Source: an uncultured Actinomycetes bacterium (GTDB lineage Bacteria > Actinomycetota > Acidimicrobiia > Acidimicrobiales > RAAP-2). From it: 64,000 nucleotides of DNA. Location: assembly GCA_903893745.1 (NCBI GenBank), contig CAITNF010000006.1, positions 98,995 through 162,994 of the forward strand. The letters run 5' to 3'. Both the position numbers and the translations under genes were made by a program. Of this stretch, positions 26,005 to 31,416 are shown one piece after another (position 1 is the stretch's first letter; the number at the start of each line of letters is the position of its first letter). The notes beneath the pieces are model-generated. The model was given only the letters and a program-made list of their open reading frames with translations. It was not told the origin of the DNA and searched no databases.

Positions 26005-26301
26005 TTAACTTTCATTACGACGCCAAAACGAAGGTGGTCGCGCGTGGGCATGGTAGTGATCAGGGATATTTCGCATGTGGTCATCAACACGCCACTCGCC
26101 AGGTCCCAACTCGCTATCAGCAACTGCTCGGAGTGCCTCGAGCAGCGCGTGCTTAATTTCTGGTGGTGGTATCGCGTCGTGTTGCCGCCATACAACCATT
26201 GGCACCAAGCAGATTTCGCAGTCGGCAATCCAACACAGTTCGTCATCGAAATACCTCGTCGTGATGACCGCCGCCGCACAGAGGGGGCAGCCACCGCTCA
26301 T
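26005..26301 (-). CDS. Small cysteine-rich (zinc-ribbon-like) conserved hypothetical protein
   Basis: The 98-aa product starts MSGGCPLCAAAV and has a CPLC pair followed about 24 residues later by DCEICLVPMVVW, so four cysteines in a CxxC...CxxC layout expected to bind zinc. The C-terminal half contains MRNIPDHYHAHARPPSFW, rich in His. I believe similar proteins occur in other actinobacteria but cannot name a characterised member. ATG 26301 overlaps the stop of the PASTA pseudokinase gene by 4 nt (ATGA), giving coupled translation; a longer in-frame start at 26379 lies inside that gene and is less likely. Function unknown. Confidence 0.75.
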   Translation of the reverse strand: MSGGCPLCAAAVITTRYFDDELCWIADCEICLVPMVVWRQHDAIPPPEIKHALLEALRAVADSELGPGEWRVDDHMRNIPDHYHAHARPPSFWRRNES

Positions 26302-28298
26302 TTCACAGTGATAAGGACGTAGGAGTGCCACTTCACGACGGTTCCGGCCAGTGGTGACTGGGCCGTCGCGGTCGTCCATCGGGTGCTGTTCGAGTTTGGC
26401 CCCGTCGTATTGAAGTACAACTGTGCAGCGGCCATCGCAGCGTAGACCTGCGCGCGGGTAAGTCCAACAATGTTCGGTACCGCCCGCAGCCCCTCGCCCG
26501 GAGGCGTGGACGTAGTCGTAGTGGGCCCCGATTTGGTCGTGGTCGTCGTTGTTCCCGATGGCGCAGTCGTAGTGGTTCCTCCGCCACTCACTGGACCCAA
26601 GCTCAGAGCCAAAATCAAAGTCGAACCCGATGGAATCGACTTAGGGGCAATGGCACCTCCGACCAGAACTTTGGCAATTCGACCAATGGGCACCGTCGCA
26701 CTATGGATTGAGGCTGACGACGGGCACTGTGCGGAAAGTCCAACTTTGAGAATCCGAGCGGTGGCGCTCACACAGTCTTCACCAATCAATTTAGCGGGCA
26801 CGGTAATGAGCTTTGGTCCCGACGACACGGTTACGTCAATCACCGTCCCCGGCTTTACCGACACGTCGGCGGCCGGGACCTGCGAGACGATCAGACCCTG
26901 GGGCACCGTTGACGAATTCGTTCGCGCGTTAACCGAGACGCTCAGCCCATCACTATTCAACTGAGTAACCGCTTCTTGATACGTCAGATTCAGCAGCGAA
27001 GGAGTCTTGATTGTTGACGATGCTCGACCGACCACGGCGTAAGCACCGGCGCCAATCGCGACGATGAGAATCAGTACGGCGACGATTCGCAAGATTGACT
27101 TACTCATTCCCGGTGGGCGAACGAATGCGGTCTCCTCGTTCGACCGACTACCGGTACGCAGAGGCGCGGGTGCGGCTAAACCGCGACGTTGTTCAAATCG
27201 GATGGAATCATCAATTGGTTGGCTGGTACCAATTCTCTTGACTGGCCGCTCATCTGCACCACGTACTTGGTCTGGTGAAGGGGCCCGAAAGCCAAACGTG
27301 GGTCGCGGCGTCGGAGCGGGGATAAAGGGCTCTTCGAAATCATCATCGAAGTCATCCGCTTCAGGGCTCTGGACGTAAAACTCCTCGTCAGATTCGAGGA
27401 ACGTCGCTTCGTAGGTTTCGACAAATGGTTCGACAAACGGTTCGTCAACGAACTGAGCGCCGTAGCCGACGCGCAGTGTCAAAGGAGCACTATCGGGCGC
27501 TACCGCATCGAGACGTCCAGAGAGTTGTTCGGCGTCAAGTCGAAGTCGAGCGTCAGGTACCGCCGCTTGCGCCAACAACATGTCTAACGTTCCCAACTCT
27601 GGTCGAACCGGCAACGGCATCGAAATTCGCGCGCGAAGTGAATCTTGCGGTGTCGCCATGAGAAATGGGACTGTTCCGGTAGCCGCTTCGAACAAAATGA
27701 GTGCGAGGGCGTATACGTCAGACGAAGGACTTGGCGGATCGCCAACCGCTTGCTCGGGACTTAAATACCGAACTTGATCGAACGTTCGCTCTTCGTCGTA
27801 CACTCCACCCAGTCCCGACAGTGCCACATCGGAAACTCGGACGCGGCCCTCGTCATCAAAAAGCAGGCTGCTTGGTGACAGCGCTCCGTGGACAAAATCA
27901 TTGGTGTGCAAGTAGGAGAGCACACTGCCCACGTCGCGACCGAGACGTGCGACGTCATCGAGGTCGAGACGCTGGCCCGACGCCAGTGCAGTCTGCAATG
28001 ACCCTCCGGTCAAGTACTCGGTCACCATGAAGATATGACCCGACTCTTGGCCACCGTCGTACACGCGCTCGAGGTGAGGGTGACTCAGTGTCGCGACCCG
28101 AACAATGTGGTTTCGAAACGCTCGGCGAACGCCTTCACTCGCCGCGAGTTGCGCGAGCAGTACCTTGATCACCACGACTCGCTGGAGAGAAAGATCCTCG
28201 GCGGCGTACACTTCGGCAACGTGACCAACGCCAAGCAGTTCGATGATCCGATAGCGACCAACGAGGGTGTGACCAGGGGTAAACGTAGCTGCGGGCAT
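26298..28298 (-). CDS. PASTA-domain Ser/Thr protein kinase homologue, predicted pseudokinase
   Basis: The 666-aa protein has a kinase-like domain (~16-265), an acidic cytoplasmic linker, a TM helix (ILRIVAVLILIVAIGAGAYA, ~415-435) and three PASTA repeats, the last after a Thr-rich stretch. It keeps the ATP-site Lys (VVVIKVLL, K45) and the activation-segment YLSPEQA. The catalytic loop reads HGALSPSSLL at 137-146 where active kinases have HRDLKPxN: Asp, Lys and Asn are all changed. DFG is DVA at 157, and the alpha-C Glu position is His64. PknB-like kinases sense cell-wall fragments through PASTA; this one probably acts as a scaffold or sensor without phosphotransfer. ATG 28298 has AGGGG 5 nt upstream. 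Confidence 0.88.
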   Translation of the reverse strand: MPAATFTPGHTLVGRYRIIELLGVGHVAEVYAAEDLSLQRVVVIKVLLAQLAASEGVRRAFRNHIVRVATLSHPHLERVYDGGQESGHIFMVTEYLTGGSLQTALASGQRLDLDDVARLGRDVGSVLSYLHTNDFVHGALSPSSLLFDDEGRVRVSDVALSGLGGVYDEERTFDQVRYLSPEQAVGDPPSPSSDVYALALILFEAATGTVPFLMATPQDSLRARISMPLPVRPELGTLDMLLAQAAVPDARLRLDAEQLSGRLDAVAPDSAPLTLRVGYGAQFVDEPFVEPFVETYEATFLESDEEFYVQSPEADDFDDDFEEPFIPAPTPRPTFGFRAPSPDQVRGADERPVKRIGTSQPIDDSIRFEQRRGLAAPAPLRTGSRSNEETAFVRPPGMSKSILRIVAVLILIVAIGAGAYAVVGRASSTIKTPSLLNLTYQEAVTQLNSDGLSVSVNARTNSSTVPQGLIVSQVPAADVSVKPGTVIDVTVSSGPKLITVPAKLIGEDCVSATARILKVGLSAQCPSSASIHSATVPIGRIAKVLVGGAIAPKSIPSGSTLILALSLGPVSGGGTTTTAPSGTTTTTTKSGPTTTTSTPPGEGLRAVPNIVGLTRAQVYAAMAAAQLYFNTTGPNSNSTRWTTATAQSPLAGTVVKWHSYVLITVK

Positions 28299-28312: not shown

Positions 28313-31416
<3,104 letters not shown>

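Follow-up and report, generated by a model that had tools for sequence, protein, structure and literature searches.

The subject of this analysis is a gene for a PASTA-domain protein with a degenerate protein kinase domain, found in a stretch of 64,000 nucleotides ("the window") from an uncultured Actinomycetes bacterium of the order Acidimicrobiales (assembly GCA_903893745.1, contig CAITNF010000006.1, positions 98,995 to 162,994 of the forward strand). The gene occupies 26298..28298 on the reverse strand, as do all window features whose coordinates are given below, and encodes a protein of 666 residues, P0001, in an open frame that begins with the ATG at 28298, has zero internal stops, and closes with a stop codon ending at 26298. 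Comparison with the sequences of its relatives gives good support to a PASTA receptor in a dead-but-selected state.

The architecture of P0001 is that of the PASTA Ser/Thr kinases, with a kinase domain followed by a transmembrane helix and then by extracellular PASTA repeats. Pfam matches Pkinase at residues 16-220 with 88.5 bits (cut-off 31.7) and PASTA with 70.5 bits in two stretches, and the NCBIfam equivalog model for PASTA kinases, NF033483, reaches 230 bits, under its cut-off of 450. The kinase-fold domain (residues 9-275; 27474..28274) is predicted with high confidence, the AlphaFold2 model of residues 1-290 having a mean predicted local distance difference test score (pLDDT) of 92.5, and its nearest solved structures by VIA-align are PknA and PknB at Z 30-32 (PknA 4ow8: Z 32.4, root-mean-square deviation 2.0, 263 aligned; PknB 2fum: Z 30.9, deviation 1.7, 250 aligned). 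An earlier interpretation made from the DNA letters alone, referred to here as the sequence-only reading, had proposed an intact transmembrane helix and three PASTA repeats. The helix is indeed present (residues 402-423; 27030..27095), with a hydropathy peak at 405-423. Repeats 1 (residues 431-493; 26820..27008) and 3 (residues 604-666; 26301..26489) are each significant alone in Pfam, at 52.4 and 28.9 bits; the middle repeat (residues 494-568; 26595..26819) is not detected by Pfam, and is PASTA-like only by profile-profile comparison, in which it matches repeat 1 with a probability of 94-96%. Cys509 and Cys525 of this middle repeat are both invariant in 54 of 54 aligned orthologues and possibly form a disulphide outside the membrane. 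A Thr/Pro-rich spacer, recognized from the sequence (residues 569-603; 26490..26594), stands ahead of the last repeat.

Directly upstream on the same strand lies ligA, identified by Pfam as encoding the NAD-dependent DNA ligase (28313..30358). Its stop codon ends at 28313 and is separated from the P0001 start by 14 bases; this linkage recurs in orthologues. At the other end, a small open stretch (26005-26379) shares 82 bases with the last part of the gene, read in a different frame; its CPLC and HYHAHARP stretches recall HIT-like proteins, and it has no Pfam match at 1e-3.

Active-site losses across the genus

The catalytic residues of P0001 were assigned by alignment to PknB of Mycobacterium tuberculosis, which agrees with what had been claimed of them. 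The beta-3 lysine of the ATP site, K45 (28164..28166), is kept; the alpha-C glutamate, PknB E59, is replaced by H64 (28107..28109); and the catalytic loop at residues 137-144 (27867..27890) reads HGALSPSS instead of HRDxKPxN, with A139 for the catalytic Asp, S141 for the Lys and S144 for the Asn. Where DFG would be expected the sequence is DVA (residues 157-159; 27822..27830), and here only the emphasis of the sequence-only reading needs correcting: the Phe and the Gly are lost, the latter replaced by A159, and the Asp, D157, is retained. The combination of an intact HRDxKPxN, DFG and alpha-C Glu is absent from P0001, and its kinase domain, judged by sequence, most likely no longer transfers phosphate.

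A genus-wide search finds an orthologue in 57 of 61 congeneric genomes. Fifty-six of these were taken into the survey (G041 was left out), and the catalytic loop is readable in 53, those of G022, G025 and G038 being cut by contig ends. With "canonical" defined as the presence of K45, E64, D139, N144 and D157 together, none of the 53 qualifies, so that sequencing error or a single mutant is rejected and the dead domain proposed by the sequence-only reading is supported. Position 139 drifts among S, A, E, D, G, N, T and R (Ser 14, Ala 13, Glu 12, Asp 6, Gly 5, others 3), and the six rows with Asp139 (L024, L080, L081 and L083-L085) are all without Asn144. Position 141 is Ser in 47 of the 53 and Ser or Thr in 48; position 144 is Lys in 40 and Asn in none; D157 is present in 52 and Gly159 in 5. 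With one genome unreadable at each of the two positions, Lys45 is found in 45/53 and Glu64 in 4/53, and position 45 is His, Gln or Arg in 7 of the 52 readable genomes. Two routes are seen within the genus: the main clade keeps K45 and has lost E64; in the basal members (L043, L045, L089, L092) E64 remains and position 45 is Arg or His.

The four genomes without an orthologue look like assembly gaps rather than cases of true absence, since three have no ligA match and the ligA of the fourth extends past the contig end; the gene is present in every genome of the genus in which the locus is assembled. PASTA was found in all 22 orthologue rows scanned. The one genome seen from a sister genus of the same family (L042) also carries a dead form. 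The named relatives in the dead clade are metagenome-assembled genomes (MAGs) labelled Acidimicrobiales, Acidimicrobiaceae (from palsa and fen samples), Actinomycetes, Actinobacteria bacterium 21-64-8, uncultured actinobacterium and, one time, Acidobacteria, and there is no cultured strain of the clade among the 80 loci kept.

What the domain has kept can be gauged from 60 positions conserved in at least 95% of 91 active orthologues, for which E64, D139 and N144 were among the selection criteria, as compared with 55 dead-clade rows, near-copies included. Thirty-one of these positions are kept in at least 90% of the dead-clade rows and 17 in fewer than half. The collapsed positions include 138, 139, 141 and 144, 158 and 159, 174 and 175, and 54, 57, 64 and 65, that is, the catalytic loop, DFG, the P+1 loop and the alpha-C region (R138 in 0 of 55 rows, D139 in 6, K141 in 1, N144 in 1, G159 in 6, and the P+1 Gly-Thr in 0 for G174 and 5 for T175). 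The activation loop (159-177) has 19 residues in 50/55 dead-clade rows versus 23 in 77/91 active orthologues. The glycine loop is kept (G23 in 51/55, G25 in 49/55), as are the residues of the N-lobe dimer: R15 in 55/55, L38 in 53/55 and D81 in 55/55, with L96 less so, in 47/55. These align to PknB R10, L33, D76 and V95; mutants L33D and D76A of PknB are, by their titles, structure entries 3ori and 3orm, and R10 and V95 presumably belong to the same interface.

Selection on the gene was assessed from the ratio of nonsynonymous to synonymous substitution rates (dN/dS; NG86 counts) in 54 pseudokinase coding sequences, using 79 pairs that are 80-99.5% identical in the kinase region; the ratio could be computed for 75 pairs, which share sequences and hence are not independent. 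In the kinase region it lies between 0.03 and 0.24, lower than in the extracellular region in 75/75 pairs and lower than in the linker in 71/75, and no internal stops occur in any orthologue match listed in the genus search. By these ratios the dead domain is held by purifying selection, as the proposal that this is not a decaying pseudogene had anticipated, and P0001 is very probably a conserved, functional pseudokinase receptor.

Origin of the dead clade and of its linker motif

A survey of the order covered 95 of 148 genomes among the matches listed, with better-scoring ones favoured, so that the figures are not rates. Seventy-four orthologues in 39 families (including f14 and f38) lie behind ligA on the same strand; 64 of these are canonical and 10 degenerate. 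Among the canonical, ligA-linked kinases are those of IMCC26256 and IMCC26207, as well as L057, L061 and L266, which were included in the survey and are canonical at the five residues. The degenerate loci belong to the window's own family (f1, 4 genomes) and to families f7, f51 and f26. Because most orthologues in other families are active by these residues, they date the loss and do not refute a dead kinase in the window. A further 21 loci have no ligA in the stretch examined, 20 of them canonical and one (L227) degenerate; several are PknB-operon kinases by their motifs. L227 and four others without ligA in the stretch examined (L192, L196, L198 and L199) read HGDIRPSN and DLGT, with Gly for the HRD Arg, the Asp and Asn kept and the alpha-C Glu lost.

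A tree of 59 rows, built with the catalytic columns left out and with a bootstrap that had not settled, sets two PknB-operon rows apart (support 100/100) and places the window's clade, clade A, in one group (99/94). A second group, clade B (98/92), holds L186 (an Ilumatobacteraceae MAG), L193, L216 and L229, with L197 inside it, and sits within a larger group (100/100) that also contains L201, canonical at the five residues. Joining clades A and B into a single dead clade, as expected of a transfer or of one shared loss, costs 72.6 log-likelihood units and is rejected (p-AU 9.2e-5), a strong result if not a formal one, as the groups were picked after a first quick tree. Also separate in appearance, on poorly resolved branches, are L217 and the pair L108/L246; this pair (family f51) is ligA-linked and sits on a long branch of its own, with HSGIAPSN or HGGIAPSN and DFAL in the active site and K45 and E64 kept. 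On this topology, an active ligA-linked PASTA kinase has died in the window's family and independently elsewhere, which makes a minimum of two losses, and the shape of the tree suggests further ones.

Clades A and B share the same rewiring of the catalytic loop, with Lys141 changed to Ser or Thr and Asn144 to Lys (both in all four clade B members); in the active orthologues position 141, which was not a selection criterion, is Lys in 88/91. Clade B mostly keeps R15 and D81, each in 3/4. It has Leu38 in 0/4 (three have Ala, Ser and Thr, and L186 shows a gap, possibly caused by the alignment), so that the fold alone does not force a leucine at this position.

The window's clade has also acquired a motif in the linker between the kinase domain and the membrane, PRPTFGFRAPSPDQVRG in P0001 (residues 331-347; 27258..27308), with a genus consensus of PRxSIGFRxPSPDQIVG. 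Searched for by regular expression, its core RxSIGFRxPS is present in 41 of the 46 clade members that are non-redundant, the sister genus included (L012, L031, L043, L084 and L090 miss it), and in 1 of the 91 active orthologues, on inspection a chance match, in 0/19 PknB and in 0/7 rows around clade B. Measured as the mean share of the top residue, with gaps counting against, conservation is 0.74 in the motif, against 0.14 before it, 0.31 after it and 0.73 in the kinase region. Of 54 rows, all have Phe337 and Pro340, 52 have Gly336, and Ser334 is found in 49 with Thr in 3 more. Comparison of these sequences leads to the conclusion that the motif is newly gained and fixed beside the predicted dead domain in this clade.

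In an AlphaFold2 model of residues 1-400, the linker blocks within 321-350 have pLDDT values of 67, 61 and 63 and other blocks 38-55, and within the motif residues 335-337 form a strand and 342-347 a helix, which is a hint that it may dock on its own kinase domain. Fold searches fail to place the motif, the one SAD-kinase row that reaches model residue 349 being too weak; MviN structures do not occur among the 50 rows listed, which bears on the question in neither direction. A genome search with a degenerate DNA pattern of the motif gives one match besides the pseudokinase gene, in a frame that looks like chance. Coupling of the new linker Phe to the loss of Trp82, which is W in 90% of active orthologues and G in all 39 main-clade rows, was considered as the origin of the motif and rejected: versions of the motif are already found in basal members, in which Trp82 is retained.

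Possible roles beside a canonical PASTA kinase

Two Pkinase matches occur in the host genome (1.66 Mb; completeness 96.4%), the first being P0001 and the second a PASTA kinase on contig C1. The latter stands in the order FhaA_N-FHA, FHA, PP2C phosphatase, PbpA-like transpeptidase, PASTA kinase, CrgA, a cluster that we take to be the actinobacterial division operon, and its motif K-E-D-K-N-D-G is fully canonical in 22/22 genomes of the genus from which this PknB was taken. A search for an active PASTA kinase in the same genome, advised by the sequence-only reading, thus ends at a canonical PknB. In this operon (L098, 4309-8923) the PP2C gene is followed directly by that for the PbpA-like protein, with which it overlaps, and neither a RodA frame nor a second kinase intervenes; mycobacterial operons have rodA and pknA at that place. 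The MurJ/MviN frame on the same contig (L273) is only 595 residues long, which leaves no room for a C-terminal pseudokinase domain of the mycobacterial MviN type.

The interpretation that is somewhat favoured is of a non-catalytic PASTA receptor, dimerizing perhaps with PknB and docking through its new motif. By sequence, an active PASTA kinase encoded behind ligA has in this family lost its catalytic Asp, the loop Lys and Asn, the Gly of DFG and the Gly-Thr of the P+1 loop, together with some four residues of the activation loop, and it has kept the N-lobe dimer residues and the PASTA repeats. The repeats may still read the state of the cell wall; the dead domain would form pairs by way of its N-lobe, either with another copy of itself or with the cell's active PknB, whose activity it would thereby set; and the linker motif would dock either on a partner or on the protein's own kinase domain. 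The net result would be a non-catalytic relay from the cell wall to the division kinase. N-lobe dimerization activates PknB and PknD allosterically, according to a review (PMC3601408). Of the separate parts, docking of a partner on the motif is conceivable at a little under even odds and N-lobe pairing with PknB is a more tentative suggestion; both can hold.

Several observations weigh against the relay. Asp is present at position 139 in 6/53 congeneric rows, and the retention of K45 and D157 in most species leaves room for nucleotide binding or for weak, odd catalysis. Active orthologues conserve the dimer residues too, so that P0001 may simply have inherited them and use them for homodimers alone, and the fourth of them, L96, is kept in only 47/55 rows. 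Docking of the motif is of low confidence in the model, where residues 321-330, ahead of the motif, score as high (67). The domain also evolves faster than the PknB of the same cell, with a mean identity of 60% versus 79% (190 pairs, 20 genomes), PknB being the more conserved in 187/190 pairs. This faster change, together with the drift at position 139, is what slow decay of a gene no longer needed would predict; decay is nevertheless highly improbable given purifying selection on the kinase region, orthologue matches free of stops, a gene in every assembled locus of the genus, PASTA in all rows scanned and a newly fixed linker motif.

The sequence-only reading had named a scaffold, a decoy or an allosteric partner as candidate functions, and other roles than the relay would make different use of the same parts. 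In one, which is unlikely if not far-fetched, P0001 is a phospho-scaffold comparable to MviN: PknB would phosphorylate the linker, FhaA or FhaB of the PknB operon would dock there, and peptidoglycan synthesis would be throttled, replacing the pseudokinase tail of mycobacterial MviN. The precedent of MviN itself (PMC12599244, PMC3601408) argues for this, as does the short host MurJ, given that the MviN pseudokinase is placed at residues 710-942 (PMC12599244). Further points in its favour are that the host genome has only two Pkinase matches, that FhaA_N-FHA and FHA proteins are encoded in the PknB operon, and that motif position 334 offers a Ser in 49 and a Thr in 3 of 54 rows. FHA domains, however, prefer phosphothreonine and the motif has mostly Ser, and its invariant Phe337 and Pro340 resemble a docking peptide more than a simple phosphosite. 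As a decoy or buffer, P0001 would vie with PknB for lipid II or muropeptides through its PASTA ectodomain, and its dead domain would tie up PknB in silent pairs; this would account for PASTA repeats and N-lobe pairing residues on both proteins. It is improbable, because a pure ligand sink needs neither a new linker motif nor a kinase region under tighter constraint than the extracellular one, as seen in 75/75 pairs. An unusual enzyme, binding nucleotide without a normal metal site and carrying out a non-canonical reaction or weak phosphotransfer, would suit the retention of K45 (45/53), D157 (52/53), Lys144 (40/53) and the glycine loop, and the pseudokinases SelO and SidJ have other chemistries (PMC12599244). 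The substitution of K45 by His, Gln or Arg in 7/52 readable genomes, Ser144 in P0001 itself, and the loss of the P+1 Gly-Thr in nearly all rows make this quite improbable.

A more speculative extension of the receptor-and-relay interpretation, doubtful as it stands, connects it with the parallel losses. The ligA-linked PASTA kinase of the Acidimicrobiales would have become a receptor pseudokinase repeatedly, two lineages converging on S/T-P-x-K with the DFG Asp kept, and a salt bridge between Lys144 and Asp157 could replace Mg and lock an active-like shape without ATP, making the domain a constitutive, allosteric N-lobe partner of PknB, to which the linker motif adds a docking site in the window's clade. 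Ser144 in P0001 implies that the salt bridge is not the whole story, and the loss of Leu38 in clade B limits the pairing part to the window's clade. If true, this would be a bacterial counterpart of the HER3-type receptor pseudokinases, evolved repeatedly.

Comparison with known systems

PASTA kinases sense cell-wall fragments, phosphorylate proteins and link the state of the cell wall with growth and division. The small host genome has only two detected Hanks-type kinases, and one of them has, by its sequence, lost activity and kept its receptor. Across a genus of mostly uncultured actinobacteria this predicted dead receptor has been kept and has gained a motif of its own, so that active orthologues, parallel losses and the new motif together offer a comparison set for the roles of receptor kinases beyond catalysis. 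The dead PASTA clade may have been catalogued earlier: a 2019 survey of pseudokinases across the tree of life (Kwon et al.) reportedly includes bacterial PknB-like groups, one of them possibly named for an HGA motif. No description of this gene was recognized among the papers listed by searches of open-licence PubMed Central (PMC) literature. A 2025 review covers seven families of bacterial pseudokinases, and in the part of its text available none has PASTA, the word occurring once, in the title of a reference (PMC12599244).

Among the families described there, "DYD", "ActPs1" and "ActPs2" are, like P0001, actinobacterial, and for none of them is PASTA described in the text at hand (PMC12599244). 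The DYD family has a beta-3 Arg and a DYD motif, and ActPs2 a beta-3 Arg for Lys, Asn for the HRD Asp and a deletion at DFG (PMC12599244, in the portion available); P0001 has K45, A139 and D157, with DVA. ActPs1 is given there as having all three catalytic residues substituted, often a PQQ domain and no G helix; P0001 keeps K45 and D157, has no PQQ domain by Pfam, and in its model has a helix at 217-226 following a long helix at 191-207.

A further family is "ActPs3", which in M. tuberculosis is part of MviN. Like P0001 it is an actinobacterial, membrane-bound pseudokinase, and MviN works with PknB in control of the cell wall, as the review text available has it (PMC12599244). The approximately four-residue deletion in the activation loop of the window's clade is similar in kind to the deleted activation loop of ActPs3. 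The same text has MviN fused to a peptidoglycan-synthesis protein, without PASTA, and all three ActPs3 motifs lost (VALT / Lsidhpsr / Y-- in MviN); in contrast, P0001 keeps K45 and D157 and has no MurJ domain. EssB/YukC is likewise a transmembrane pseudokinase with a structural, non-catalytic role, resembling that proposed for P0001, but it is part of type VII secretion, and PASTA is not mentioned for it in the available text (PMC12599244).

With the PknB/Stk1 PASTA kinases (NF033483), P0001 shares the kinase fold, a single transmembrane helix, extracellular PASTA repeats and the residues of the N-lobe dimer. It differs from them in the loss of the catalytic Asp, Lys and Asn, the DFG Gly and the P+1 Gly-Thr, in being encoded behind ligA and outside the division operon, and in its score of 230 bits, under the equivalog cut-off of 450. 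The general features of a pseudokinase, namely a kinase fold with catalytic residues lost and conservation across species, are all found in it. The gene thus appears, on sequence grounds, to be a descendant of the PASTA kinases that falls outside their catalytic definition and would work in the manner of a receptor pseudokinase.

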